DNA from: Clostridium saccharobutylicum DSM 13864
GTDB taxonomy: Bacteria > Bacillota > Clostridia > Clostridiales > Clostridiaceae
Direction: 5' to 3'
NCBI RefSeq assembly: GCF_000473995.1
Contig: NC_022571.1
Span: 2,449,416 to 2,513,415 of the forward strand
Length of the DNA: 64,000 nt
Made by a program: the position numbers and the translations under genes. Every line of letters begins with the position of its first letter. Position 1 is the first letter of the stretch. The notes beneath the pieces were generated by a model. It was not told the DNA's origin, made no database searches, and worked only from the letters and a program-made list of their open reading frames with translations. This document shows, in pieces, positions 32,207 through 51,875 of the stretch.

Positions 32207-34141
32207 GTGAAAAAAAGATTCATAGTTAAAATATACTTAATTCTTAGTATTTTTACTGTATTAATCCCCACATCATCAATTATTTTGGCTCAGCAAAAAA
32301 TAATTCCTTCTTTTGATAGGTGGAGAATTAACAATTTTACTTTCTTTTTGCTAGTTACATTATCTATTTCTATTATTCCTACTTTATTTTTAGTTAATAA
32401 AATAACAAGAATATATGTAAAAATTAAAGAAATAAAAAATAATTTAAATATGAAAAATGAAAAAAAATTAAATAAATTTAAATTAAAAAACATTGATTTT
32501 TTCTTTGAAGAAATAGATAAAATAAGTAGAGAAGCACGGATACTGCAGTTTGAAAATAGAATTTTGTATGATACAGCGTTGGCAATACACAGTACAGCCT
32601 CTTTTCAAGAGTTATTAGATACAATATTGGCTAGGCTTACAACTCATATAAATGCAGATTTTGGTTTAATATTTTTATTAGAAAATGATGAACTTAGGCT
32701 AAAAGCATATTCTAATATTTTTGATCAAGATATAGAAAAAACAAGCTTTAGAATAGGAGAAGGGCTTGTAGGATGGTCTGTTCATAAAGGCGAAGGAATA
32801 CTAACTCGAGATGTGCAAAATGATTATCGTTATATACGTTGTATTAACTATACAAAAGCTCAAATTACCATTCCTATAAAAATGTACGAAAGAATACTTG
32901 GGGTTCTGGTTTTAGGAAGTAAAAAATCTTCTGATTTTAATGAGTCAGATTTTAAACTAATTAATACAATATCAGGTGAAATTGGACTTGCAATAAATAA
33001 TGCTCAATTAACAGAACATCTTAAAAAAGAAAATGAAAATAATCAAATGCTTTTTAAATTAACCAAAAAAATAACATCTTCTGTAGAATTAAATAAAGTA
33101 GCTGAAATTGGTGTTAAAACAATAATAGGTGTTATAAACGTTAAATCTTGTGTTTTAGCAATATTAGAAGAAGGCAACGAAGATGTTTTAAAGATTATTT
33201 CATCATATGGAACAGATAAAGAAAAATCACAATTTTTAGAATTGAAAGAAACTATAAGAGAGGCATTTACTGAAAAACGATCTGTTGAACAAAAAATAGA
33301 TACTGGATATGTATATTCCATTCCAATATTGTCTAAAGAAAACTGCATAGGGATTTTACATATAAATACAGAAAATATATTAACTATAGAAGAAATTGAA
33401 CTTATTAATAGTGCAGTAACTTCTTTATCTAGTGCGTTAGAGAATGCTTTTTTATATAAAAGTGTAGAGACTTTAGCCATAAGAGATGGATTAACGAGTA
33501 CGTATAATCGCCGTTATTTTCAAGATGTAATTGATGAATATACTAAGAAAGCTCAAATAAATAATGAAGATTTATCGTTAGTAATGTTAGATGTAGATAA
33601 TTTTAAAAAATATAATGATACTTATGGACATATAGTAGGAGATTTTATCTTAAAAAAGATTGCAAACATTATGGAGAACTCTTTAAGACATGATGATATA
33701 ATATCCAGATATGGTGGTGATGAATTTATTATTATTTTACCTAATACTAAGATTGAAGAAGCAAAAATTATTATGGAAAATATACGAGATTCAATCTCTT
33801 CTTATAAATTTGAAATTGATGATGAAAAGAAAGAAGTAGAAGAAGAGAAAGTTGCAGAGTTAAAAGAAGTTATAGAAGTAGAAGGTAAAAAGGGTAATAT
33901 GTTCAAAGGTGAGAATTTATTTAATAATAATTTTAAAAATTGGATTATTGAAAAAGTGGGATTAAATCAATTTAATCGTACTTCTCAATCTTTCAATGTT
34001 ACAATTAGTGTAGGAATAAGTTCTTTGATGCATACTAATTACGATAAAGAAATGTTGATAAAGAATGCTGATAAATCATCTTTAGAATCAAAACGAAAAG
34101 GAAAGAATCAAGTAAGTATATGTATGCCTGAATTGAATTAA
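32207..34141 (+). CDS. membrane GAF-GAF diguanylate cyclase with product-inhibition site
   Basis: A diguanylate cyclase of 644 residues. GTG 32207 follows AAAAGGAG. Two N-terminal membrane helices (about 6-28 and 43-66) precede a coiled region, GAF domain 1 (about 125-275), GAF 2 (about 285-425) and GGDEF. The active site is SRYGGDEFIIIL. RHDD at the correct spacing is an intact RxxD inhibitory site, the only one among the three cyclases here. A charged insertion of about 60 residues (EKKEVEEEKVAELKEV and onward) separates the GGDEF loop from the late TISVGISS motif. A terminator follows at 34265. The insertion is unusual and may be a regulatory or binding module. Confidence 0.9.
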   Translation: MKKRFIVKIYLILSIFTVLIPTSSIILAQQKIIPSFDRWRINNFTFFLLVTLSISIIPTLFLVNKITRIYVKIKEIKNNLNMKNEKKLNKFKLKNIDFFFEEIDKISREARILQFENRILYDTALAIHSTASFQELLDTILARLTTHINADFGLIFLLENDELRLKAYSNIFDQDIEKTSFRIGEGLVGWSVHKGEGILTRDVQNDYRYIRCINYTKAQITIPIKMYERILGVLVLGSKKSSDFNESDFKLINTISGEIGLAINNAQLTEHLKKENENNQMLFKLTKKITSSVELNKVAEIGVKTIIGVINVKSCVLAILEEGNEDVLKIISSYGTDKEKSQFLELKETIREAFTEKRSVEQKIDTGYVYSIPILSKENCIGILHINTENILTIEEIELINSAVTSLSSALENAFLYKSVETLAIRDGLTSTYNRRYFQDVIDEYTKKAQINNEDLSLVMLDVDNFKKYNDTYGHIVGDFILKKIANIMENSLRHDDIISRYGGDEFIIILPNTKIEEAKIIMENIRDSISSYKFEIDDEKKEVEEEKVAELKEVIEVEGKKGNMFKGENLFNNNFKNWIIEKVGLNQFNRTSQSFNVTISVGISSLMHTNYDKEMLIKNADKSSLESKRKGKNQVSICMPELN

Positions 34142-34264: not shown

Positions 34265-34299
34265 AAGCATAGTACTAAATATATTTTAGTACTGTGCTT
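34265..34299 (+). terminator. terminator after the GAF-GGDEF gene
   Basis: A 15-bp stem with one G-U pair (34265-34279 with 34285-34299) and a T6 run. The remaining DNA from 34300 to 34462 holds nothing recognisable apart from the next ribosome site. Confidence 0.88.
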
Positions 34300-34462: not shown

Positions 34463-35518
34463 ATGAGAAATTTAAAAAAAATATTAGTATCTATTATGAT
34501 TCCAGTTATGATGATTATCCTAATTACTGGGAGTTATAGAAATAATGTATATGCTGGTCCAAAGGTTTGCAGAGAAACTCCGATTAAGATAGCTGTATTT
34601 TTAGATAATGCTGACGCTATGTATATTTCTCTTCTTAAACAAAACCTAGAAAGTATTGAAAAAGAAAATAAGGATAAAGTTAAATTTACTTTCTTTAATG
34701 CAAAAGATAATCAAAGTATACAAAATGAAAGCATTGATAAAGCTCTTGAGGATAATTATGATCTTTTTATTATAAATACAATTAGTCCTAATTTAAAGGA
34801 TGTGGAAGACACTTTTCGTAGAATTATGGAAAAAAACATTCCTATAATTTTAAATCCAGATCCAACTAAAGAGATAATAGACTTTGTTAAACCTTATAAA
34901 AAATTTGTTGTTATTGGAGCGGATTTTGAGCAATCAGGTACTATGGAGGGTAAAATTTTAGCAGATGAATGGAATTCTAATAAACAGGTTATAGATAGAA
35001 ATCATGATGATATATTGCAGTATGTTATTTTAAAAGGTAGAATCGGAAGCCCATTAACTTATTTAAGAACAAAATATTCTGTTTTAGCTCTCAATCAGTC
35101 TGGAATAAAAACAGAAGAAATTGATTCAAATAATTGTGAATGGTTAGAAGATTGTGCTAAGAGTTCTATTGAATCTCTATTTCTTAGATACGGAAACAAA
35201 ATTGAAGCAATAATTTCTAATAATGATGCTATGGCAGTAGGTGCAGTGAAAGCTTTGAAAGAATATGGATACAATAAAGGTGATAAATCAATGACAATTC
35301 CAGTTGTAGGTATTGATGGAATGCCACAAGCTAAAGAATTTATACAAAAAGGTTATATGACAGGTACAGTTATTGTAGAGCCTCATGATCTTGCTGAAGT
35401 CCTTTATACTATAGGAATTAATTTAGTATGCAATAGAAATCCTCTTGAAAATACAAATTATAAGTTTGATGATACAGGATATACAGTTCATCTAAATTAT
35501 ACTGAATACATAAAATAA
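34463..35518 (+). CDS. periplasmic galactose/sugar-binding-type protein (sensor component)
   Basis: A type I periplasmic binding protein fold, 351 residues. A signal/anchor peptide is present (MRNLKKILVSIMIPVMMIIL) but no lipobox Cys follows, so it is either secreted or anchored by that helix. The mature part resembles galactose-binding MglB: PIKIAVFLDNADAMYISLLK, LFIINTISPN, NIPIILNPDP, VVIGADFEQSG, AIISNNDAMAVGAVKAL and VVGIDGMPQAK. ATG 34463 follows TATGGAGGAGCACA. No permease or ATPase gene is near; the following genes encode kinases, a second binding protein and CheR. It therefore probably presents a sugar-like ligand to a membrane kinase. The ligand is inferred only from fold similarity. 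Confidence 0.85.
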   Translation: MRNLKKILVSIMIPVMMIILITGSYRNNVYAGPKVCRETPIKIAVFLDNADAMYISLLKQNLESIEKENKDKVKFTFFNAKDNQSIQNESIDKALEDNYDLFIINTISPNLKDVEDTFRRIMEKNIPIILNPDPTKEIIDFVKPYKKFVVIGADFEQSGTMEGKILADEWNSNKQVIDRNHDDILQYVILKGRIGSPLTYLRTKYSVLALNQSGIKTEEIDSNNCEWLEDCAKSSIESLFLRYGNKIEAIISNNDAMAVGAVKALKEYGYNKGDKSMTIPVVGIDGMPQAKEFIQKGYMTGTVIVEPHDLAEVLYTIGINLVCNRNPLENTNYKFDDTGYTVHLNYTEYIK

Positions 35519-35772
35519 TTCTTAAATGTAGGAGCAAAAAAGTAAATGAAGTCAAAAAATGGAATAATGGATATTGAGCTGATATTATAATATGAATACC
35601 AATGAAAAACAATCATTATTGTAAGATTTTGTTATATATATAATTGGTAAAAAAGTAAAAATTGTGATATAATCAACAATAAAAAAGCAAAAAAATTACA
35701 AAATGGAATTAATTGCTGTTTTTTTAGAAATTTAGCTAAGTTATATTAGTTATTTAAGTGAGGTATTGAAAT

Positions 35773-37035
35773 ATGGGAACAAGTAATTTGTATACAATTT
35801 TAGTCGTAGATGATAATCGCAATAATTTATTTACTGTCAGATCACTTATTGAAGAATATATAGATGCTCAGGTTATTCTTGCAGATACTTCGACAAAGGC
35901 GTTACATGAACTTATAAAGCATCAAGTGGATTTAATTATTTTAGATGTACACATGGAGAAGGGAATGGATGGATTTGAGCTAGCAAAAATTATAAAAAGC
36001 AGAAAAAAAACAGAACATATTCCTATTGTATTTTTGACTGCAGCGTGCATAAACGAAGAGTTTAAAAGAAAAGGTTTTGAAATAGGAGCAGTAGATTATC
36101 TTACTAAACCTATTGATGACTTTTTAATGATAAATAGAATAAATGTTTATTTAAAGCTGATTGAAAAAGAAAGAAAGATGAACATAATTTTACAAGAGCA
36201 GGCTGAGGAACTAAAAAGGGCAAGGAATGTAGCAGAAGCTGCAAATAGAGCTAAAGATGTATTTCTTGCCAATATATCACATGAACTTAGAACTCCTTTG
36301 AATATTTTGTTTGGAACAACTCAAATAATAAAATTTCATCTTGATAATGATGAAATTTTAGATATAAGAGAATTAAAGACTAAATTAAAAACACAAACTC
36401 AAAATTGTTATAGGCTTATAAGATTAGTAAACAATCTTATTGACATTACAAAAATTGATTCTAGTAACTTTGCTCTTAACTTATCAAATTGTAACATTGT
36501 TGAGATAGTAGAGGCTATTGTAACATCAGTAGTTGAATATGCACAATTAAAAAATATTAAAATAATATTTGATACAGATGTTGAAGAAGTAATACTTGCA
36601 TGTGACCTAGATTCCATTGAAAGAATTATTTTAAATCTTTTATCTAATGCTATAAAGTTTACTCCTAAGGATGGACATGTTTTTGTAAATATAAGTACTA
36701 ATGATAACTTAGTTCAAATTAAAGTTAAGGATTCAGGTATAGGGATTCCTGAAGACGAACAGAATATGATATTCGAAAGATTCAAACAAGTGGACAACCT
36801 TCTTACAAGAACAAATGAGGGTAGTGGAATTGGACTTAATCTGGTAAAGTCTCTTGTTGAAATGCATGGTGGAACTATAAAAGTTAATAGTGAATATAAA
36901 AAAGGGAGCGAATTTGTCATTGAAATTCCCATAACAAAAATTAATAATAATGAATCACATGAAAAGGGTGCCAACAATATTTTTAGCAATGTAATTTCAA
37001 AAATTGACGTTGAATTTTCTGATATATATTTCTAG
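35773..37035 (+). CDS. REC-histidine kinase (response regulator fused to kinase)
   Basis: 420 residues: an N-terminal receiver (VDDNRNNLF, phospho-acceptor Asp in LIILDVHMEKGMDG, Lys in VDYLTKPID), a coiled linker (QEQAEELKRARNVAEAANRA), the dimerisation His in ANISHELRTPLN, and the ATPase domain with N-box LNLLSNAIKFTP, G1 DSGIGIPEDE and G2 SGIGLNLVKSL. It has no membrane segment, so it is cytoplasmic and is likely to be phosphorylated or switched by another kinase, probably the hybrid kinase two genes later. ATG 35773 follows AAGTGAGGTATTGAAAT. The gap of 254 bases after the first binding protein gene contains no terminator. Only 16 bases separate it from the second binding-protein gene. 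Confidence 0.9.
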   Translation: MGTSNLYTILVVDDNRNNLFTVRSLIEEYIDAQVILADTSTKALHELIKHQVDLIILDVHMEKGMDGFELAKIIKSRKKTEHIPIVFLTAACINEEFKRKGFEIGAVDYLTKPIDDFLMINRINVYLKLIEKERKMNIILQEQAEELKRARNVAEAANRAKDVFLANISHELRTPLNILFGTTQIIKFHLDNDEILDIRELKTKLKTQTQNCYRLIRLVNNLIDITKIDSSNFALNLSNCNIVEIVEAIVTSVVEYAQLKNIKIIFDTDVEEVILACDLDSIERIILNLLSNAIKFTPKDGHVFVNISTNDNLVQIKVKDSGIGIPEDEQNMIFERFKQVDNLLTRTNEGSGIGLNLVKSLVEMHGGTIKVNSEYKKGSEFVIEIPITKINNNESHEKGANNIFSNVISKIDVEFSDIYF

Positions 37036-37051
37036 GGAGGTAAACAAAACA

Positions 37052-38014
37052 ATGAAAAGAATTTTAACAATGATACTTGCTAGTATTATGATTATGTATT
37101 TGTTTGCTGGATGCACTGATAGAACAAATCATAGGACAGATATTAATAAGAAAATTAAAATTGGTGTTTGTGTTTCTAATCTCAATGATAAATTTATGTC
37201 TTATTTGATTAAAGAAATGAAAGATTATGCACAATCTTTAAATAATGTTGAAATAGAATATGTTGATGCTAAAATAGATTCTAATACACAGTTGTCGCAG
37301 GTTGAAAATTTCATATCAGAGAAGGTAGATGTTTTAGCTGTTAATCCAGTGGATAGTAATTCGACTAAGGTAATAAGTGACAAAGCTAATGCAGCTGGAA
37401 TTCCAATAGTTAGTTTTAATAATAACTTTGAAGATTCTAGTGATGTAATATGTTCGGTAGACTCGGATTTAAAACAATCTGGTTTATTAGAGATGGAGAA
37501 TTTGGCAAAAAAAGTTAATTACAAAGGCAATGTTGCAATTATCATGGGCACTATGGGGCAGCAAGGTCAAAGACTTAGAACACAAGCGATTCGTGAAGTA
37601 GTATCAAAGTATCCAGATATGAAAATTGTTGCTGAGCAAACAGCTGGATGGAATAGAGCTAAAGGTATGGCTCTAATGGAAGGCTGGATTGAATCAGGCA
37701 AAGATATTGATGTTGTAGCTTGTGAAGACGATGAAATGGCAATAGGTGCATTAGAGGCTATAGAGCAATCTGGAAAACTTGATAAGATAACTGTAGGAGG
37801 GATTGATGCTACTCCTGATGGTCTTTATTACTTAAAAAATGGTAAATTATCTGTTACAGTATTTCCTAATGTAAGCGATCAAAGTAAAGCTGTTTTAGAT
37901 AATGCAATTAAAGTAGCTAATGGAGAAAAAGTAGAGAAAGATGTAAGCTTTCCAAATGAATTAATCACTTTGGAAAATGTGGACCAATATATAGCTAAAT
38001 GGCAAAATAAATAA
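37052..38014 (+). CDS. ribose/rhizopine-type substrate-binding lipoprotein
   Basis: A type I periplasmic binding protein of 320 residues from ATG 37052, which follows TAGGGAGGTAAACAAAACA. The lipobox LFAGC (Cys 22) makes it a membrane-anchored lipoprotein. The mature part resembles ribose/inositol/rhizopine binders: KIKIGVCVSNLNDKFMSYLI, VDVLAVNPVDSNSTKVI, AGIPIVSFNN, GNVAIIMGTMGQQGQRLR, VVACEDDEMAIGALEA and VGGIDATPDGLYYLK. It is only distantly similar to the binding protein at 34463, so the cluster may sense two ligands. No transporter genes accompany it. It is followed after 21 bases by the large hybrid kinase, whose extracytoplasmic domain is the probable partner. Confidence 0.88.
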   Translation: MKRILTMILASIMIMYLFAGCTDRTNHRTDINKKIKIGVCVSNLNDKFMSYLIKEMKDYAQSLNNVEIEYVDAKIDSNTQLSQVENFISEKVDVLAVNPVDSNSTKVISDKANAAGIPIVSFNNNFEDSSDVICSVDSDLKQSGLLEMENLAKKVNYKGNVAIIMGTMGQQGQRLRTQAIREVVSKYPDMKIVAEQTAGWNRAKGMALMEGWIESGKDIDVVACEDDEMAIGALEAIEQSGKLDKITVGGIDATPDGLYYLKNGKLSVTVFPNVSDQSKAVLDNAIKVANGEKVEKDVSFPNELITLENVDQYIAKWQNK

Positions 38015-38035
38015 CACTACTTTAAGGAGGAATTT

Positions 38036-41000
38036 ATGAAGAATTTTAGAAATTTTAGCATAAAGAAAAGATTTTTAATATTATTTTTTATATGTATTAT
38101 AACCTTTGTTAGTTTTGGCGTTTTTGCCTTAATTCAAATGGATAATTTGGCAGAAGTAACTCAAAAATTGTATACTCAATCGTCAAAAGTTTCAGAAGCG
38201 GCAGTAAAAGCAAAATTAGATTTGATTAAGATTAATAGCTCAATTAAAGATGTAATTTTGTTATCAAATACCAATGAGATTGAAAGTCAGATTAATAAGG
38301 TTTCAGAATATGAAACTGATATTCAAAAAAATTTAGATATAATGGATCAAAATTCTGTTGATTCTAATACAAAAAGAAATTTACAGGATTCAAATGATCT
38401 CCTTTCAAAATGGTGGAAGCCACAAAGAGATAAAATTATTGAAGATGTGAAGAATGGGAAAAAAAATGAAGCAATAGATATATCTAAAGGAATCAGTTCG
38501 GATTTTGTTGACCAACTTGAACTTGATCTTGATAATATATATTCAACTTCGTCAGACAATCAAATTAGTTTAATCCAACAATCGAATGAAATGCAGAATT
38601 CAGAGAGAACAACATTAATTATAACTTTAACAGTTTTAATTAGTATACTAACATTGACTTTTATTTTGATGGCATTAAGCATTTTAAACCCTATTAATAA
38701 ATTAAAAGAACACATGGCTAAAATATCAAAGTCAGGAGATTTAGAAGAATATAAAATAATAGATCATAAAAATGAAATTACAGAAATGGCTAAAAATTAT
38801 AATGAATTGATAAACAAATTGAAGCATGAATTCTGGATAAATGATAATAGAAATTCTTTAAATGAACAAATGGTGGGTAATATATCTGTAAAAGAATTAA
38901 CTCAAAAGACAATAAATTTCTTATCTAGATCATTAGATTCCGGAACTGGAACATTTTATATATATAATAGTGAAAAAAATGTGCTTACACTAAATTCTTC
39001 ATTTGCATTTACAGAAAGAGAAGTGTTATCTAATACATATGAAATTGGTCAAGGAATAATTGGTCAAGTAGCTTTAGAAAAAAAACCTATACTTTTAACA
39101 AATGTAAGAAAATCAGATGCAGTAATTTGTAGTGGTACCATAAATGGAACTCCGCTAAATGTTTATGCTTTCCCATTAATTTATAATGACCAGCTTTATG
39201 GTGTAATTGAGTTATCATCTTTTGAAGCAATCAATGAATTAAAGCAGAAATTTATAGAAAGGATAAGCAGTGTTATTGCTGTTAATCTATATTCTGCAGT
39301 TCAAAATGAAAAAATTAAACAATTATTAAAAGTAAGTGAAAAAGCAACAAAAGAAGCTCAAGAAGTATCAGCTCAGTTAATAAGTGCTAATAGTGTATTA
39401 GAAGAACAACAAAGGCAACTTCAGGCTCAAACTGAAGAATTGCAACAAACAAATTCTCAGCTTGAAGAACAGCAACAAATACTTCAACAGCAAAGTGAAG
39501 AATTGCAACAGACAAACGCTCAACTTGAAGAAAATCAATCATATATGGAAGAACAGTCAAAACTTTTAAATGCTAAAAATGATGAATTGGAAAAATCAAG
39601 AATAGAAATTTTAGAGCGTTCTAAGGATCTAGAAATGGCTAATAAATATAAAACTCAATTCTTGGCGAACGTATCTCATGAACTTAGAACACCACTTAAT
39701 TCCATTATATTATTATCAAAACTCTTAATAAAAGGCTGCAAAGACGTTACACTACATGATTCACAGGAAAAGATAAAAGTTATATTTAATGCCGGTCAAG
39801 ATTTACTTAATTTGATAAACGATATTTTAGATTTATCTAAGATAGAGGCTGGAAAAATAGAATTAAACTATACATACTTTAATTCCAGTGAGATTACAGA
39901 AGAACTTAATAGTCTATTTAATGAGAATGCGGTAGAAAAAAATATTCAATTTATATGTGAAGATAAATTTAAAGATACTATCTATGGAGATAAAGAAAAA
40001 ATATCTCAAGTGTTAAAGAATTTCTTATCTAACTCATTTAAGTTTACAGAAAATGGTTCTGTAAAATTAAAAATCGAAGAAAATACTAAAGGGGATAACA
40101 GCATAGTATTTTCTGTAATAGATACTGGAATTGGTATATCTAAAGAGCATTTAGATACAATTTTTGATGAGTTCCATCAAGCAGATGGTTCAATTTCAAG
40201 AAAATATGGTGGTACAGGACTTGGCCTGTCTATAAGTACTAAGCTCTGTGATCTTATGAAGGGAAAAATAAATGTAATAAGTGAAGTTGACATGGGAAGT
40301 ACATTCTCATTACATTTACCTATTATAGTTCAAGAACATTCTATTTCTAGTCTTGAAGAAGTAGCAGCAACATCAACTATTATGAATAATGAAGTTCAGC
40401 ATATAATAAATGTTCAAGAAAATGAGATAAAGAAAGAAAAAAATAAACAATTACTGATCATTGAAGATGATAAAACTTTAATTGATTCTATTAAAGCAAT
40501 ATCTGAAGGGATAGGATTTCAAACAGTAACATCAAATAATGGAAATGAAGGGTTTAAACTTTTAAAAGAAAATGATGTTGATGGCATTGTACTTGATTTA
40601 GGATTGCCAGATGTAGGGGGAATTGAATTATTAAAAAAGATTAATTTAGAATTAAAACAAAGAAAATTGAGCATACCTGTTGTTATTTATACGGGAATGC
40701 AGATAAATAAAGAGCAAGAAAAAGAAATAAAACTATATGCAGACAGCATAATAATCAAGACTACGAATTCTTTTGAAAGACTGCTAGATGAATTGACTCT
40801 AATACTTCATAAATTTAATGGAGAAAAAGAATATAAGAACATAATTACATCTAAGATTAATAAAGATAGAGCGCTGAATTTAGAAAATAAAAAAATACTA
40901 ATTGTAGATGATGATTCAAGAAATATATTTGTACTAGCAGCGGCTTTAGAAGAATATGGTGCAGAAATTATTGAAGCAGAAAACGGAAAAATTGCACTTG

Positions 41001-41254
41001 ATGAGCTTCAAAATGAAACTTGTGATTTAATCCTGATGGATATAATGATGCCAGTTATGAATGGATATGATACCATTAAAGCTATAAGAAATAATGATTC
41101 AATGAAAGACATACCAATTATAGCAACTACAGCAAAATCCCTAAAAGGTGATAGAGAAAAATGTATGGAAGCTGGTGCAAATGATTATATTTCTAAGCCA
41201 ATTGACTACGATGTACTTATAACACTAGTAAAAGCTTGGATTAATAAAGCGTAA
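38036..41254 (+). CDS. membrane hybrid histidine kinase: 4-helix sensor, HAMP, GAF, kinase, two receivers
   Basis: 1,072 residues. A membrane helix (about 15-35), an extracytoplasmic four-helix (MCP/CHASE3-like) domain (about 36-190), a second helix (about 195-220), HAMP (LNPINKLKEHMAKIS), a GAF domain (about 285-420), and a long Gln/Glu-rich coiled coil (about 430-540, with repeated TEELQQTNSQLEEQQ units). Then come the H-box ANVSHELRTPLN, N-box LKNFLSNSFKFTE, G1 DTGIGIS and G2 GGTGLGLSIS. The first receiver has its Asp in GIVLDLGLPD and the second in LILMDIMMPV. There is no HPt or DNA-binding domain. It is flanked by binding-protein and cheR genes. ATG 38036 follows TAAGGAGGAATTT. Output is presumably through the REC-kinase or another relay protein. 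Confidence 0.92.
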   Translation: MKNFRNFSIKKRFLILFFICIITFVSFGVFALIQMDNLAEVTQKLYTQSSKVSEAAVKAKLDLIKINSSIKDVILLSNTNEIESQINKVSEYETDIQKNLDIMDQNSVDSNTKRNLQDSNDLLSKWWKPQRDKIIEDVKNGKKNEAIDISKGISSDFVDQLELDLDNIYSTSSDNQISLIQQSNEMQNSERTTLIITLTVLISILTLTFILMALSILNPINKLKEHMAKISKSGDLEEYKIIDHKNEITEMAKNYNELINKLKHEFWINDNRNSLNEQMVGNISVKELTQKTINFLSRSLDSGTGTFYIYNSEKNVLTLNSSFAFTEREVLSNTYEIGQGIIGQVALEKKPILLTNVRKSDAVICSGTINGTPLNVYAFPLIYNDQLYGVIELSSFEAINELKQKFIERISSVIAVNLYSAVQNEKIKQLLKVSEKATKEAQEVSAQLISANSVLEEQQRQLQAQTEELQQTNSQLEEQQQILQQQSEELQQTNAQLEENQSYMEEQSKLLNAKNDELEKSRIEILERSKDLEMANKYKTQFLANVSHELRTPLNSIILLSKLLIKGCKDVTLHDSQEKIKVIFNAGQDLLNLINDILDLSKIEAGKIELNYTYFNSSEITEELNSLFNENAVEKNIQFICEDKFKDTIYGDKEKISQVLKNFLSNSFKFTENGSVKLKIEENTKGDNSIVFSVIDTGIGISKEHLDTIFDEFHQADGSISRKYGGTGLGLSISTKLCDLMKGKINVISEVDMGSTFSLHLPIIVQEHSISSLEEVAATSTIMNNEVQHIINVQENEIKKEKNKQLLIIEDDKTLIDSIKAISEGIGFQTVTSNNGNEGFKLLKENDVDGIVLDLGLPDVGGIELLKKINLELKQRKLSIPVVIYTGMQINKEQEKEIKLYADSIIIKTTNSFERLLDELTLILHKFNGEKEYKNIITSKINKDRALNLENKKILIVDDDSRNIFVLAAALEEYGAEIIEAENGKIALDELQNETCDLILMDIMMPVMNGYDTIKAIRNNDSMKDIPIIATTAKSLKGDREKCMEAGANDYISKPIDYDVLITLVKAWINKA

Positions 41255-41272
41255 AAATAATGGAGGATAATT

Positions 41273-42415
41273 TTGAACTTTAGAATAATTTATAATCAAA
41301 CAGAAGATAATATAGTTGTTGTAGGAGAATTCGAAGAGTACAAGCACGAAGAACAACTTATGGAATTTTTAAATTTGCTACAAAAGCAAAACTTTTATAT
41401 AACTTTTTTAGAAGCTAATATAGTTCCTCGTAATATAGTAGAAAAACTTTTTACTTTACAAGAGGATGGCAGGTGTACAATTTTTGTTTTAGAAAGATAC
41501 TTATATTCATACTTGCAAAATTTAGGAATAAAATGCAAATATACTGAAGCACACTGGTGTTTTAACAAATTAGAAAATAAACTGCCTAATGAAAAACAAA
41601 CTTTAAATAAGGAAGATGTCTATATTTTTTTAAATGAATTAAATAATGTTTATGGTTATGATTATACAGATTATCAAATTGACAGTATATCAAGGCGTAT
41701 AAATGTAGCCATGATAAAAGAGGGAATCTGTGATTTTGCTTTGTTTAAACATAAAGTTTTAAATAATCAGAAATTATTTCATAATTTATTTCTTGATTTT
41801 TCAATAAATACTACAGAATTTTTTAGGGATCCTGAGGTGTTTGCATTAATTAAAAATAAAATACTTCCGTATTTAGATTCATACAATCATATTAAAATTT
41901 GGTGTGCAGGGTGCTCTACTGGAAAAGAAGTTTATTCATTAGCAATAATGCTTGAGGAAGCAGGAATGCTTGGTAAAACTCAGATCTATGCTACAGACCT
42001 TAACCCTTATGTAATAGAAGAGGGTAAAAATGGCATGTATTCTACAGGCACTTTAGATAAAGATATAAATAATTATAGAAATGCACAAGGAGAAAAAAGT
42101 TTTATTCAATATTTTGACATTACTAAAGGTTATATAAAAGTTAAATCTGAGCTTATGAAAAATATATTGTTTTTTCATCATAGTTTACTTAGTAATGGGA
42201 CATTAAATGAATTTAATCTCATACTTTGCAGAAATGTATTTATTTATTTTAATGATGGTTTGCAGGAGAAAATATTAAGAAATTTTTATAATTCATTAGA
42301 TAACAATGGATTCTTAGTACTAGGAAAAAGTGAAGGAATTCAAAGAAATAATGGAGAAAAATATTTTTGTAAGTATGATGAAAAATTAAAAGTATATACT
42401 AGAATATATTCATAA
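41273..42415 (+). CDS. CheR-type protein methyltransferase with extra N-terminal domain
   Basis: An S-adenosylmethionine-dependent glutamate methyltransferase, 380 residues. TTG 41273 follows ATGGAGGATAAT, 18 bases after the hybrid kinase, so it is in the same operon. The CheR part occupies about 115-380: NTTEFFRDPEVFALIKNKIL, the SAM loop IWCAGCSTGKEVYSLAIML, YATDLNP and NLILCRNVFIYF. Residues 1-105 are an additional domain beginning MNFRIIYNQTEDNIVVVGEF that I do not recognise. CheR normally methylates chemoreceptor coiled coils, but no receptor, CheB or CheA is present in the window. The adjacent hybrid kinase carries a Gln/Glu-rich coiled coil that could be its substrate. Confidence 0.9.
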   Translation: MNFRIIYNQTEDNIVVVGEFEEYKHEEQLMEFLNLLQKQNFYITFLEANIVPRNIVEKLFTLQEDGRCTIFVLERYLYSYLQNLGIKCKYTEAHWCFNKLENKLPNEKQTLNKEDVYIFLNELNNVYGYDYTDYQIDSISRRINVAMIKEGICDFALFKHKVLNNQKLFHNLFLDFSINTTEFFRDPEVFALIKNKILPYLDSYNHIKIWCAGCSTGKEVYSLAIMLEEAGMLGKTQIYATDLNPYVIEEGKNGMYSTGTLDKDINNYRNAQGEKSFIQYFDITKGYIKVKSELMKNILFFHHSLLSNGTLNEFNLILCRNVFIYFNDGLQEKILRNFYNSLDNNGFLVLGKSEGIQRNNGEKYFCKYDEKLKVYTRIYS

Positions 42416-42523
42416 AAGAGATGCTGCAGAAAAGATAAAATACAATATATTGATTTGATTTACTATTTAATAAACCCAATCAATATATTGTACTAAAAAT
42501 TCATTTTGCGACAAGCTCTTTTT
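42414..42523. repeat. nested palindrome at the convergent gene ends (terminator plus inserted palindrome)
   Basis: Outer arms AAAAGAG (42414-42420) and CTCTTTT (42517-42523) with partly pairing GC-richer neighbours look like an ordinary terminator. Within its loop sits a perfect 15-bp inverted repeat (42441-42455 with 42478-42492, stem starting TACAATATATT). A similar stem occurs at 60631-60676. It probably terminates cheR and the opposite small gene. Confidence 0.65.
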
Positions 42524-46397: not shown

Positions 46398-46820
46398 ATG
46401 ATAAAAAGTTATAATTGGACGAAAGTGATGAAAAAATCAGTTGCTGTTTTAACGGCTCTAAGTATTTGTTTGGGTACAGAATTTGCTTTTCCAAGTAAAG
46501 CAGCTAAGGCACAAACAGCAAATTATGATTTGATTTGTTCATCAACGGCTTATACAGCAGATGCTGGAAGTCTTACAGCAAGTGGAAGAGTAGTAGAAAG
46601 AAATCCACGAAGGATAAGTACAGTTGCCGTCGATCCAGATGTAATTCCTCTAGGATCAATTTTATACATTCAAGGCTATGGATATGCAGTAGCAGCAGAT
46701 ACAGGTGGCGCAATAAAAGGAAACAAGATTGATGTATTCTTTGATAGTGAGAGCGACTGTGATGATTGGGGTGTAAAAACTGTTAAAGTTACAGTATTAG
46801 GGGATTCTACAAATTCATAG
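46398..46820 (+). CDS. secreted 3D-domain (MltA-like barrel) wall-active protein
   Basis: 140 residues. A signal peptide (about 1-38, hydrophobic core VAVLTALSICLG) precedes a 3D domain: SSTAYTADAGSLTASGR, VAVDPDVIPLGSILYIQGYG and AADTGGAIKGNKIDVFF, where the conserved Asp residues form the family's catalytic site. The domain is the double-psi barrel of lytic transglycosylases and stationary-phase/resuscitation proteins (YocH/Rpf-type). ATG 46398 follows GAAAAAGGAGAGATTTA. With no other domain, this is the minimal form; it probably cleaves or binds peptidoglycan. It has its own promoter. Confidence 0.9.
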   Translation: MIKSYNWTKVMKKSVAVLTALSICLGTEFAFPSKAAKAQTANYDLICSSTAYTADAGSLTASGRVVERNPRRISTVAVDPDVIPLGSILYIQGYGYAVAADTGGAIKGNKIDVFFDSESDCDDWGVKTVKVTVLGDSTNS

Positions 46821-47438: not shown

Positions 47439-48104
47439 ATGAATATTGACTGGAATTTTGTAGTGACCAACTTACCTTTATATGAGAAAGCGGCATGGAT
47501 CACACTGAAGCTTGGCTTTGCTGGAATAATCATATCATTGGTAATTGGATTATTATGTGGCATAATATTATATTTTAAAGTAAAAGTCATTGATTCTATT
47601 GTACAAGCTTATATAGAACTTTCAAGAAATACCCCATTGCTTGTACAGATATTTTTCCTTTATTTTGGATTACCAAAATTGGGATTAAAAATGAACGAGA
47701 GTACTTGCGCAATAATTGGACTTGCATTCTTAGGTGGAAGCTACATGGCCGAAGCGTTTAGAAGTGGACTTGAGGCTGTTGGAAAAACACAAATTGAATC
47801 TGGAATAAGTCTTGGTCTTTCAAAAATTCAACTTGTAAGATATGTAATAATTCCACAGGCTTTTTCAATAAGTATGCCTGCATTAAGTGCAAACTGTATA
47901 TTTTTATTAAAAGAAACTTCAATATTAGGAGCTATTTCTATACTAGATGTTACCAATCTAACAAAGGATTTAATAGGAATGTATTATAGAACATTTGAAT
48001 CATTAGCGATGTTAGTTGTAGTTTACCTTATAATGATTCTGCCTTTATCATTTGTACTGTCTTGGTTAGAAAGGAAGGTGCGATATGCAGAATTCGGCAA
48101 TTAA
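47439..48104 (+). CDS. polar amino-acid ABC transporter permease 1
   Basis: A HisM/GlnP-type membrane subunit of 221 residues with five or so membrane helices. The cytoplasmic EAA loop that docks to the ATPase is EAFRSGLEAVGKTQIESGIS followed by LGLSKIQLVRYVIIPQA. The N-terminal ITLKLGFAGIIISL and SRNTPLLVQIFFLYFGLP are family signatures. ATG 47439 follows AAAAAAGGTGGTAGATAA. It overlaps permease 2 by 20 bases. The permeases should form a heterodimer in the importer. Confidence 0.93.
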   Translation: MNIDWNFVVTNLPLYEKAAWITLKLGFAGIIISLVIGLLCGIILYFKVKVIDSIVQAYIELSRNTPLLVQIFFLYFGLPKLGLKMNESTCAIIGLAFLGGSYMAEAFRSGLEAVGKTQIESGISLGLSKIQLVRYVIIPQAFSISMPALSANCIFLLKETSILGAISILDVTNLTKDLIGMYYRTFESLAMLVVVYLIMILPLSFVLSWLERKVRYAEFGN

Positions 48105-48762
48105 CGTTATTTTTCAAGAAAAAAATATTCAGCGTTTATTTGAAGGGTTATTTGTAACAGCAGAAATTGCTTTTATATCTATTATTATAGGATCTATACT
48201 AGGTATACTTATAGGATTGAGTAGAACAACAAAATTCAAGATAGTACTTTTTATTAATAGAGTGTATCTTGAAGCCTTTAGAATAATACCAACACTAGTT
48301 TGGCTGTTTATTTTCTATTTTGGAGTTACAACAGCACTAGATATAAATCTTGATGGAGAAATAGTTTCTATTATTGTATTTAGTCTGTGGGGAGCAGCAG
48401 AAATGGGGGATATTGTTAGAGGAGCACTTCAATCGCTTCCGAAACATCAAATTGAGTCTGGTAAGGCTTTAGGGTTAAGTTATTTTCAATTATATAGGTA
48501 TATAATGATACCCCAAGCTATAAGAAGAATGATACCTGGAACTATAAATTTAGCTACTAGAATGGTTAAAACTACTTCTCTTGTAGTTTTAATAGGTGTT
48601 ATAGATGTAGTTAAAATAGGTCAGCAAATTATTGAAAGTTCAAGATTTGAATTTCCTACTGCATCTTTTTGGATTTATGGTTTTATATTCTTCTTATACT
48701 TTATAATATGTTATCCACTATCAAGGCTATCAAAAAAACTAGAAGCAAAGTGGAATAATTAG
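48085..48762 (+). CDS. polar amino-acid ABC transporter permease 2
   Basis: 225 residues, same family as its neighbour. Signatures: [35 protein letters not shown] and the ATPase-docking loop [20 protein letters not shown] followed by [21 protein letters not shown] 48085 lies within permease 1 behind AAGGAAGGTGCGAT, so the two are translationally coupled. The next gene starts 11 bases after its stop. Confidence 0.93.
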
Positions 48763-48772
48763 GAGGAGTATA

Positions 48773-49522
48773 ATGGATAAAAATAATAATCCTGTTTTAT
48801 TACAGATACAGGATGTTCATAAAAAATATGAAGATAAAGAAATATTAAAGGGAATCGATTTAAGTATTCATAAGGGTGAGGTTTTAGTTGTATTAGGACC
48901 ATCAGGTTGTGGAAAAAGTACTTTCTTAAGATGTCTTAATGGTCTTGAAAAGATTCAAGGTGGAGATATTAAGTTTAAAGATACAAGTTTTTGCGATAAA
49001 AATGCTAATTGGCAGGAGATTCACCAAAAAATAGGAATGGTATTTCAAAATTATGAATTGTTTCCACATATGACGATTATAGAAAACATACTTCTTGGTC
49101 CACTGAAAGTTCAAAAAAGAGATAAAGCTGAAGCTCTTGCGCAGGCAGAACAGCTTTTAGATAGGGTAGGGTTATTAGATAGAAAGAACTCATATCCACG
49201 TCAGCTTTCAGGAGGTCAAAAACAAAGAATAGCTATTGTTAGAGCATTATGTATGAATCCAGAAATAATTCTTTTTGATGAAGTAACTGCCTCTCTTGAT
49301 CCAGAAATGGTAAGAGAAGTTTTGGATGTTATACTAGGCTTAGCTAAGCAAGGTATGACTATGGTAATTGTAACTCATGAAATGGGCTTTGCGGAGTCTG
49401 TAGCAGATAGAATAATATTTATGGATGAAGGAAAAATATGTGAAGAATCAAAACCAAAAGAATTCTTTACAAATCCAAAGACTGAACGTGCTAAGCACTT
49501 TCTAAATATATTTCAATATTAA
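48773..49522 (+). CDS. polar amino-acid ABC transporter ATPase
   Basis: A GlnQ/HisP-type ATPase of 249 residues: Walker [11 protein letters not shown]-loop [12 protein letters not shown], signature LSGGQKQR, Walker [13 protein letters not shown] (Val replaces the Pro of DEPT), and H-loop VTHEMGFA. Length and end (HFLNIFQY) are normal. ATG 48773 follows TTAGGAGGAGTATA. All catalytic residues are present. Confidence 0.93.
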
Positions 49523-49572
49523 TTAATAAGGTAATTCAAAAATAATAATTATTAACGAGAGGATGATGAATT

Positions 49573-50445
49573 ATGAAAAAAATCAAAAAAATCGTAGCAA
49601 CATTACTTTTAAGTACTGTAGTAATTGGAGGCTTTGCTGGTTGCGGTAATTCAGCATCAACAAGCAAAAGTAACTCAAATGATACAGCAGCTAGTTCTAT
49701 TCAAGATATTAAAGATCGTGGAACTATAAAAATTGGTGTATTTAGTGATAAAGCTCCATTTGGTTATGTAGATTCAGATGGAAAGAACCAAGGGTTTGAT
49801 GTATATCTTGCAAAAAGATTTGCAAAAGATCTTTTAGGGGATGAATCAAAGGTTGAATTTGTTTTAGTTGATGCAGCAAGCAGAGTATCATACTTAGAAT
49901 CTAAAAAGGTTGATATAATAATGGCAAACTTTACTGTTACAGATGAAAGAAAACAAAAAGTAGATTTTGCAAATCCTTATATGAAGGTATCTCTGGGTAT
50001 AGTTTCACCAGACGATAATAAAATTACTTCAGTCGATCAGCTTAAAGGTAAAAAAGTTATAGTAGCAAAAGGAACAACTGCTGAAACATATATGACAAAA
50101 AATTATCCAGATGTTGAATTAGTTAAATATGAACAATACTCAGAAATATTCCAAGCATTAAAAGATAAACGTGGTGATGCCATAGTAAGTGATAATACAG
50201 AAGTTATTGCATGGGCTAAAGATAATCCAGGATTCACTGTTGGTGTATCATCACTTGGAAGTCCAGACACAATTGCACCAGCTGTAACTAAAGGTAACAC
50301 AGAACTTAAAGATTGGATCAATACAGAACTTGAAACTTTAGGTAAAGAAAATTTTGTACACAAAGCTTATGATGAAACATTAAAATCTGTATATGGTACA
50401 GAATTTGAAGATAGTCTTGTAGTTGAAGGTGGAAAAATAGAATAA
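49573..50445 (+). CDS. amino-acid-binding lipoprotein of the ABC importer
   Basis: A family 3 solute-binding lipoprotein of 290 residues. The lipobox GFAGC anchors it to the membrane. Visible: IQDIKDRGTIKIGVFSDKAP, GFDVYLAKRFAKDLLG, AASRVSYLESKKVDIIMANF followed by TVTDERKQKVDFANPYMKV, and LKGKKVIVAKGTTAETYM. The AASR...LANF-TVT pattern resembles cysteine/aspartate/glutamine binders; which amino acid is bound cannot be fixed from sequence. ATG 49573 follows GAGAGGATGATGAATT. Last gene of the four-gene operon, ended by a terminator. Confidence 0.92.
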   Translation: MKKIKKIVATLLLSTVVIGGFAGCGNSASTSKSNSNDTAASSIQDIKDRGTIKIGVFSDKAPFGYVDSDGKNQGFDVYLAKRFAKDLLGDESKVEFVLVDAASRVSYLESKKVDIIMANFTVTDERKQKVDFANPYMKVSLGIVSPDDNKITSVDQLKGKKVIVAKGTTAETYMTKNYPDVELVKYEQYSEIFQALKDKRGDAIVSDNTEVIAWAKDNPGFTVGVSSLGSPDTIAPAVTKGNTELKDWINTELETLGKENFVHKAYDETLKSVYGTEFEDSLVVEGGKIE

Positions 50446-50492: not shown

Positions 50493-50787
50493 TTTTTTAA
50501 CTTGATTAGTAAAATTAATATTTAATTAGTAAGTTGTTATATTGCTTATTTTGTTTTTAAAGTATAAAAATTTATACAAATTGATTTTTTATATCATTTA
50601 ATTTCTGAATATTTTTTTACATGGTAAAAAGTTTAAGAATATGCTAATATATTTAAATAAGAAGCGCTACTGATGATGCCATCCTTTAGGGTTTGTTTAG
50701 TAAAGAAATATTATATTTCTAGTTTCATTTTTGTTTACAAAAGATTGAAGCCTGGTAAATAATTAATTATTTAATTTGGAGGTACAT
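50493..50787. other. leader region of the HD-GYP operon
   Basis: AT-rich, with one GC-richer patch (AGCGCTACTGATGATGCCAT near 50663-50682) that does not match a riboswitch I recognise. No gene is seen. Confidence 0.35.
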
Positions 50788-51858
50788 ATGAGAGTTGTTA
50801 GCGTATCCAGCCTGAAGGGAGACGAAATACTTGGAAAGCAGATTTTTGATGAGTCTGGCAGAGTTTTGCTTAGTGTTGGAGTAAAGTTAAGACCCTTTTA
50901 CATACAAAGGATTAAAGAACTTGGAATTACTTCAGTTTATATTGATGATGATATATCAAAAAATGTAGTTATAGAAGAAAACATTTGTGAAAAGACAAGG
51001 CAAATGAGTAAACATGCAGTCAAAAATATGATTGAAGGTTATTGTCGTGAAGGGAAAACTGATAGTACTAGCATTATGAACTCAGTTAATTCAGTAATTG
51101 AGGATGTATTATCTAATAAAGATGTTTTAATAAATGTTGCAGAAATAAGTTCAAGTGATAATAATATATATTCCCATTCAGTAAATGTAAGTGTTCTATC
51201 TACAATAATAGGAACGCATATGGGATTCAGCATGCCAAAGCTTAAAGATATAGCTACAGCTGCAATGCTGCATGATATTGGTAAAATAAAAATTATGAAT
51301 GATAAAAACATTTTATCAGAGTTTAAAACACAAGAAGAATTAGACAAATATATTGAACTTATGCATCCAAAGGTTGGTTATGATGTTTTAGGAGAGCAAT
51401 ATGTTTGGAATGCACAAGTGAAAGTGGCTGCATTAATGCATCATGAAAGAAGTGATGGTAGTGGGTATCCTTTAAAATTACGAGGTGATGAAATAAACCA
51501 AATTGCAAAGATAGTTTCAATATGTGATGTTTTTGATAATTTAATATGTGGTAGAAATGTTGAGTCATCTAAAACTGTATATGAAGTTATCGAATATCTT
51601 CTAGGAATGAGCAACAGATATTTTGATGAAGAAATGGTCAGAAAATTTACAATGAACATAGCCGCTTTTCCAACTGGTAGTGGAGTTTTACTAAACTCAA
51701 ATGAAAAGGGATTAGTAGTAAAGCAAAATAACTCAATGCCAATGAGACCAGTAGTTAAAGTTGTATATGATAAAGATGGGAATAAACTTTTAGAATCTTA
51801 CGAAATTGATTTATTAAAAGAACTAACAGTTTTTATTATAAAAACCTGTGAAATTTAA
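50788..51858 (+). CDS. HD-GYP cyclic di-GMP phosphodiesterase
   Basis: 356 residues from ATG 50788, which follows ATTTGGAGGTACAT; the in-frame TTG 50776 overlaps that site. An N-terminal domain of about 110 residues with ILGKQIFDESGRVLLSVGVK is common in clostridial HD-GYP proteins. The HD-GYP domain has HSVNVSVLS, the metal site MLHDIGKI, MHPKVGYDVL, and HHERSDGSGYPLKLRGDEI with the GYP triad. All the metal ligands I can recognise are present, so it probably hydrolyses cyclic di-GMP. It overlaps nothing but is 17 bases before the hybrid kinase, so a shared operon is clear. It opposes the three cyclases elsewhere in the window. Confidence 0.92.
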   Translation: MRVVSVSSLKGDEILGKQIFDESGRVLLSVGVKLRPFYIQRIKELGITSVYIDDDISKNVVIEENICEKTRQMSKHAVKNMIEGYCREGKTDSTSIMNSVNSVIEDVLSNKDVLINVAEISSSDNNIYSHSVNVSVLSTIIGTHMGFSMPKLKDIATAAMLHDIGKIKIMNDKNILSEFKTQEELDKYIELMHPKVGYDVLGEQYVWNAQVKVAALMHHERSDGSGYPLKLRGDEINQIAKIVSICDVFDNLICGRNVESSKTVYEVIEYLLGMSNRYFDEEMVRKFTMNIAAFPTGSGVLLNSNEKGLVVKQNNSMPMRPVVKVVYDKDGNKLLESYEIDLLKELTVFIIKTCEI

Positions 51859-51875
51859 ATTTGGGGAGTGACTTT

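Follow-up and report, generated by a model that had tools for sequence, protein, structure and literature searches.

A putative binding-protein-gated hybrid kinase relay with a CheR-type methyltransferase in Clostridium saccharobutylicum and its relatives

Gene content and layout of the cluster

The window analysed here, a stretch of 64,000 nucleotides of Clostridium saccharobutylicum DSM 13864 (contig NC_022571.1, from a host genome of 5.1 Mb), carries on its forward strand five genes in which two sugar-binding proteins are interleaved with two kinases and a CheR-type methyltransferase; the last four of these genes form the unit with which this study is concerned. The ORF list and Pfam bore out all five genes of the original prediction, which had been made from the sequence alone, in both position and domain content. 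The first gene encodes an MglB-like binding protein (SBP1; 34463–35518; Pfam Peripla_BP_4, PF13407) whose start, judged by eye, resembles a signal peptide without a lipobox. After a gap of 254 nt follow a kinase with a receiver domain (REC-kinase; 35773–37035; REC at residues 9–123, HisKA at 161–230 and HATPase at 278–388), an RbsB-like sugar- or polyol-binding lipoprotein (SBP2; also Peripla_BP_4), a hybrid kinase (HYB; 38036–41254) with the domain order 4HB_MCP_1, HAMP, GAF, coiled coil, HisKA, HATPase, REC and REC, and the methyltransferase (CheR; 41273–42415), which Pfam identifies behind an extra N-terminal domain. The open reading frame of SBP2 spans 37004–38014; its likelier start is the ATG at 37052, with a lipobox (LFAGC, by eye) ending in Cys21, a cysteine shared by all 11 aligned copies. 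Within the four-gene run the spacers measure 16 (counted to this ATG), 21 and 18 nt, and a 25-nt inverted repeat (88%) directly 3′ of CheR (42441–42492) possibly marks the end of an operon. By spacing, the cluster is two units, SBP1 standing apart and REC-kinase, SBP2, HYB and CheR running together.

The two binding proteins had been predicted to be of type I and of different subfamilies, and this was upheld: both match Peripla_BP_4, and they differ in kind because their best NCBIfam models are MglB for SBP1 and RbsB for SBP2, each matched far below its cut-off. The nearest solved structure to SBP2 by sequence is 4yo7, and no ligand of SBP2 is claimed from it. As also predicted, Pfam found no transporter genes, whether ABC permease or ATPase, inside the cluster, and none of the 13 genome-wide matches to CUT2-type permeases (PF02653) lies within 55 kb of it. 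The MCP-like four-helix sensor of the kinase was recovered as 4HB_MCP_1 (residues 6–170; 38051–38545), the outer part of which is our proposed docking site for SBP2. No Pfam match to an MCP signalling domain, CheA or CheW was found among the five proteins, and the cluster is not a chemotaxis system. The claim that it lacks a GGDEF or MCP output stands for the five genes themselves, but a GAF-GGDEF gene (32207–34141) lies immediately upstream, behind a terminator-like hairpin with a T-tail (34265–34299) that precedes SBP1. In the protein that it encodes the GGDEF domain is apparently split by an insertion, Pfam finding two stretches of which the better covers residues 424–543.

Distribution of the unit, the triad and the binding proteins

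CheR was matched over its full length, including the N-terminal part, in 4 of 68 genomes of the genus, and near-full-length matches occurred in 12 of 206 genomes of the family (at most 9–10 candidates scored in each), nine at 65–100% identity and three at 54–55%. The order REC-kinase, SBP2, HYB, CheR was present in all nine genomes of the first group (eight fetched, plus the window), so that the conservation of gene order put forward as a check on the original prediction was found for these four genes and not for SBP1. The three genomes with the more distant CheR carry REC-kinase, HYB and CheR without SBP2. The same triad was present at all 20 named Clostridia loci (L113–L132) at which the match to CheR takes in its N-terminal part, SBP2 being found in six of them and missing from 14. 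Of 166 matches in named genomes the best 80 were retained, giving 79 loci, of which 26 were read for their neighbourhood and nine later (one of them again); nine of L113–L132 are apparently genomes that also bear a G number here. The core across Clostridia is therefore the triad, with SBP2 an addition to it.

At E ≤ 1e-70, and with at most 10 candidates scored per genome, SBP2 was found in 9 of the 206 genomes of the family, and these are exactly the genomes with the clade's CheR. It occupies 12 places in these genomes, 10 of them between REC-kinase and HYB. In a CheR tree of 26 rows (two of them outgroups) the nine SBP2-bearing genomes form one Clostridium clade with support of 100/100, and a single gain of SBP2 thus suffices. 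On these sequence comparisons, SBP2 is a later addition to an older triad, gained once.

More distant relatives show other combinations of similar parts. In a second set of 14 places in family genomes, only the CheR core was matched (36–40% identity); at 13 of these CheR comes after a HYB-like kinase and before a GGDEF gene, from which a CheB-like gene separates it in 10 cases, as judged by BLAST and by eye. Pfam confirmed CheB and REC-GGDEF at one of these loci (L041) and REC-GGDEF at another (L077); at the remaining place (L082) neither a HYB-like kinase nor a GGDEF gene adjoins CheR. Three loci in Bacilli (L136, 7235–13797; L147, 7271–13843; L181, 7223–13850) carry, in order, a hybrid kinase, CheR, a REC-kinase and a binding protein. 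Pfam on L136 gave 4HB-HAMP-GAF-HK-REC (the 4HB below the Pfam cut-off), REC-PAS-PAS-HK and Peripla_BP_4, and the L181 binding protein is likewise Peripla_BP_4; the outer domains of the three kinases are 44–45% identical at a catalytic identity of 70%, and 83% at 91%. Because the binding protein sits at the other end of the run, it looks separately recruited in Bacilli.

Some single loci deserve mention in their own right. The genome of Clostridium polyendosporum (G122; L067, L248 and L249; named locus L117) holds a tandem second run, with no CheR behind its HYB. Its SBP2 copies number four, one standing by itself on a different contig; the extra copies possibly widen the range of ligands. A triad copy in G212 (L297, 6921–12311) has apparently broken REC-kinase and CheR genes. 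Two Bacteroidota loci (L133, 5541–12037; L135, 5520–12583) combine a hybrid kinase, a CheR-bearing gene and a REC-kinase, with a CheB-CheR fusion in L133, so that the logic of the triad may be older than Clostridia.

SBP1 has a different distribution. Relatives at 67–76% identity occur in 14 other genomes of the genus (at most 9–10 candidates per genome scored), and SBP2, HYB and this CheR are absent from all 14 of the stretches fetched around them (7.8–16 kb). Two genomes (G056 and G066) carry both SBP1 and the four-gene unit, on different contigs. In three others (G002, G013 and G003) a kinase is followed by SBP1, SelO, a gene like that at 46398 and ABC genes, an arrangement that from SBP1 onwards is that of the window minus the unit; SBP1 directly precedes SelO there, with no ORF of 100 aa between. 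The unit of G056 lies elsewhere, between homologues of the genes at 49573 and 50776. As the unit is missing from the SBP1–SelO order and differently placed in G056, it seems to lie within an older neighbourhood. SBP1 as a member of the unit was rejected, its relatives lying away from the unit's kinases in 14 genomes, and it seems from these comparisons to be a bystander.

Sensor, tuner and output of the putative relay

The outer domain of HYB varies with the presence of SBP2. It has a one-residue insertion in the nine SBP2-bearing genomes, reading SKWW in eight and SKWA in the ninth (G147), where 14 others have a single W. Among pairs of HYB proteins with a catalytic identity of 68–80%, the sensor is 66% identical in 20 pairs with SBP2 (mean catalytic identity 77%) and 31% in 33 pairs without (mean 70%), the rows without SBP2 being the 14 named loci, to which the Acetivibrio genome G213 was not added. 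At a catalytic identity of 75%, with three pairs on each side, sensor identities are 61–67% with SBP2 vs 33–39% without, and the gap is smaller for the GAF domain (64–71% vs 57–65%). Over nine SBP2 rows, one per genome with the extra G122 copies left out, SBP2 distance correlates with sensor distance when the kinase is allowed for (partial r 0.40, a value matched or exceeded in 28 of 2000 permutations); for GAF distance there is no such correlation (partial r −0.26; 1908 of 2000 as high). That the outer sensor is far more conserved where SBP2 is present, at like kinase identity, supports docking, and from this pattern we think it probable that SBP2 docks on the outer domain of HYB.

The output of the cluster, which had seemed to be missing, is probably REC-kinase itself. 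Its core is 40–52% identical, through to the last residues, to 12 kinases of the host genome (L280–L290), and all 12 carry a C-terminal EFS[DE]IY, one of them within an ORF of 1969 aa; in REC-kinase this tail, common to orphan kinases, reads DVEFSDIYF (37006–37032). The next 24 host-genome matches end before the tail, at REC-kinase residue 407 or earlier. No receiver domain is encoded by any of the 22 genes flanking the 12 tailed orphan kinases. Among triad REC-kinases the tail is EFSDIY in 21 of 22 and ELSDIC in one. REC-kinase thus has the features of an orphan kinase, namely HisKA-HATPase, kinship with members of the group and no DNA-binding regulator beside it, its kinship with Clo1313_1942 of Acetivibrio thermocellus being probable. 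In Acetivibrio, REC-kinase was found in three of six genomes searched, one of the three copies being broken. Acetivibrio mesophilus (L119) has a 424-aa REC-kinase within a triad, and G213, which we take to be A. thermocellus ATCC 27405, encodes a 424-aa REC-kinase 87% identical to it, followed by a hybrid kinase and CheR; no other G213 match at E ≤ 1e-30 covers the REC part. Clo1313_1942 is described as a REC-HisKA-HATPase of 424 aa with a Spo− mutant (PMC11210211). It is very probably the REC-kinase of the A. thermocellus triad, an identification that suggests an output to Spo0A or sporulation, and the host genome has one Spo0A gene. We slightly favour Spo0A as the target of REC-kinase. Control by protein contact, as originally suggested, gives way in our preference to phosphotransfer, REC-kinase being kin to the type of clostridial orphan kinase that is linked with Spo0A.

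CheR consists of a SAM-binding core, conserved among members, and about 107 residues in front. Pfam matched STAS in the N-terminus of none of 21 members. As fold searches with the whole model returned methyltransferases throughout, the N-terminus was predicted alone; Foldseek E-values for the isolated model were weak (best 0.007, none at 0.001), and the call of a predicted STAS-like fold (residues 1–90; 41273–41542) was made because the top rows by Z-score were STAS-type proteins. A candidate region for methylation lies in the coiled coil of HYB, where two 63-nt direct repeats, 76% alike (39401–39526), encode a conserved 21-residue repeat with EELQQTN. Pfam found no CheB in the unit within the window, and reversible methylation-based adaptation by CheR is hypothetical.

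From the gene content, its order and conservation, the constraint on the sensor and the kinship of REC-kinase, we infer a scheme of ligand, docking, methylation, phosphate route and Spo0A target in which SBP2, a lipoprotein at the outer face of the membrane, would bind a sugar or polyol and dock on HYB at its four-helix outer domain, altering the activity of the kinase. CheR would methylate glutamates in the coiled coil and so set the gain, as RsbM does on RsbK. HYB would exchange phosphate with the REC domain of REC-kinase, which would take the slot of a response regulator, and REC-kinase would drive or drain Spo0A, so that an outside nutrient would adjust entry to sporulation or the solvent phase. 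We put the chances about even that 35773–42415 is one operon encoding such a binding-protein-gated kinase relay into Spo0A, and the full chain from SBP2 through HYB and REC-kinase to Spo0A is at best an even proposition. Somewhat more tentative is a wider evolutionary reading, in which an old, methylation-tuned relay of two kinases, the last of them acting on Spo0A, acquired a sugar- or polyol-binding lipoprotein a single time, within one Clostridium clade, with a like combination arising separately in Bacilli.

Several observations weigh against this proposal. SBP2 is unnecessary for the core, because 14 of the 20 triads have no binding protein, and the Spo− phenotype belongs to a triad without SBP2, in a genome whose identity is presumed. 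One SBP2 place in G122 (C36) has no module genes in 19.9 kb, and another lies between the two runs of that genome. Overall divergence is lower among the SBP2-bearing rows, few pairs underlie the matched comparison of sensors and few rows the partial correlations, and two closer pairs without SBP2 have sensors 50% and 62% identical, at catalytic identities of 81% and 85% respectively. The methylation sites in HYB are guesses. As to SBP1 being a bystander, three of the 14 fetched loci (G002, G013 and G003) have an orphan-type kinase immediately upstream of SBP1, and one more (L234) has another a few genes upstream, so that SBP1 may be tied to other kinases.

These points bear on three other explanations. 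SBP2 could be a scavenging or chemotaxis protein that merely shares the operon, HYB sensing something else through its own four-helix or GAF domain. Both 4HB and GAF domains are capable of direct sensing of small ligands, and the triads without SBP2 and the solitary G122 copy fit such an arrangement; the confinement of SBP2 to one clade among the 206 genomes, at the threshold and depth of search given above, the added sensor constraint where it is present, its covariation with the sensor and not with GAF, and the like arrangement in Bacilli all argue against it, and we regard it as unlikely. We give marginally more credence, still at a low level, to a variant that keeps the relay and the docking of SBP2 and sends the phosphate of REC-kinase to another regulator, such as a c-di-GMP enzyme or a motility regulator. 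A GGDEF gene does follow the kinase type and CheR at 13 of the 14 places of the more distant set, the window has another in front of the cluster, and in G056 the gene after the unit is of HD type. Over the nine genomes, however, these flanking genes are not constant neighbours, for which reason both the GGDEF gene (32207–34141) and the HD-type gene (50776–51858) were rejected as constant output partners, and REC-kinase matches, in core and tail, orphan kinases without an adjoining receiver-domain gene.

That both SBP1 and SBP2 feed one two-ligand relay, as first imagined, is very improbable. SBP1 does lie directly upstream on the same strand, orphan-type kinases stand near its relatives at the four loci just named, and a host-genome locus (L281, 3697–8579) pairs a tailed orphan kinase with two tandem SBP1-like binding protein genes divergent from it. 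Set against this are the 254-nt gap, the position of SBP1 relatives away from the unit in 14 genomes, including the two that have the unit (G056 and G066), and the three genomes in which SBP1 abuts SelO. What is supported of the original idea is the coupling of SBP2 to the four-helix hybrid kinase, with CheR, in a conserved order; its two-ligand part is not supported, SBP1 being separate. We retain the relay gated by SBP2 and directed at Spo0A as our preferred reading.

Elsewhere in the window, the ABC genes at 47439–50445 are of another type (BPD_transp_1, ABC_tran, SBP_bac_3). They are followed at 50776–54725 by an HD_5 gene, a gene for a GAF-PAS-HK-REC-REC-Hpt kinase and a REC-like gene, homologues of which lie directly downstream of the unit in G056. 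Carriage on a plasmid was rejected: megablast of the cluster against PLSDB gave zero matches (near records may be left out there). No tRNA was found in the 64-kb window, and a promoter scan returned 75 sites vs 64.7 expected (sd 10.0), which is no evidence for promoters.

Significance and comparison with known systems

Orphan kinases start sporulation in many Clostridia, and no one pathway accounts for its onset in every Clostridium, according to the relevant passages of PMC11210211. The unit described here offers, in one operon, a candidate input (SBP2, whose ligand should be definable), a candidate tuner (CheR with its STAS-like domain) and a candidate path (HYB to REC-kinase to Spo0A). If the proposal is true, the unit would serve clostridial sporulation as a sensor of an outside nutrient, CheR and its STAS-like domain acting as gain control; it would extend kinase methylation of the RsbK–RsbM type to binding-protein sensing, and it suggests a hybrid kinase and a methyltransferase as partners for Clo1313_1942. 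Among the open PubMed Central papers listed by searches aimed at this combination, none joined these parts by title or abstract start.

The closest internal likeness is to RsbK, RsbM and RsbY of Bacillus cereus. RsbM is a CheR-like protein, and HYB has the RsbK-type layout of sensor, HAMP, GAF, coiled coil, HK and REC, with 4HB in place of CHASE3 as its sensor. RsbK is likewise a hybrid kinase with an extracytoplasmic sensor, HAMP, GAF, signalling helix, kinase and REC, and its methyltransferase adjoins it and works without a cognate CheB methylesterase (PMC4574943). In contrast to HYB, RsbK senses through CHASE3, and no binding protein is described for it in the available part of that source; RsbY has PP2C phosphatase activity and serves sigma-B (PMC4574943), whereas the partner in our unit is a REC-HisKA-HATPase protein. 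The unit is thus not RsbKMY, because the partner is a kinase and not a phosphatase, and it differs further in the STAS-like domain of CheR and the second REC of HYB. Clo1313_1942 is alike in being a REC-HisKA-HATPase protein of the same length as those of the Acetivibrio triads; it differs in that its probable triad has no SBP2, and no hybrid kinase or CheR partner is named for it in the passages available (PMC11210211).

On the outside, the unit has the features of a binding-protein-coupled kinase, in that a binding protein gene adjoins the kinase and the unit lacks transporter genes. Both TorS and LuxQ are hybrid kinases; no CheR-type partner is known for the kinases of TorT–TorS and LuxP–LuxQ, nor a partner REC-kinase, and XylFII–LytS and CuaDSR are not known to have CheR or a second kinase. 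In TorT–TorS, LuxP–LuxQ and maltose-binding protein–Tar, a binding protein engages a kinase or chemoreceptor by docking on its outer domain (PMC6321045), as we propose for SBP2. In XylFII–LytS and CuaDSR a dedicated binding protein signals to a sensor kinase (PMC10384115, PMC6321045), and CuaD, like SBP2, is a lipoprotein, in a clostridial relative (PMC10384115). Unlike our unit, XylFII–LytS and CuaDSR join a sensor kinase to a regulator. CuaR raises the sugar-uptake operon (PMC10384115). By analogy, then, the unit resembles RsbK–RsbM on the inside and XylFII–LytS or CuaD–CuaS on the outside, and may be seen as a variant of binding-protein-coupled, CheR-linked hybrid kinases.

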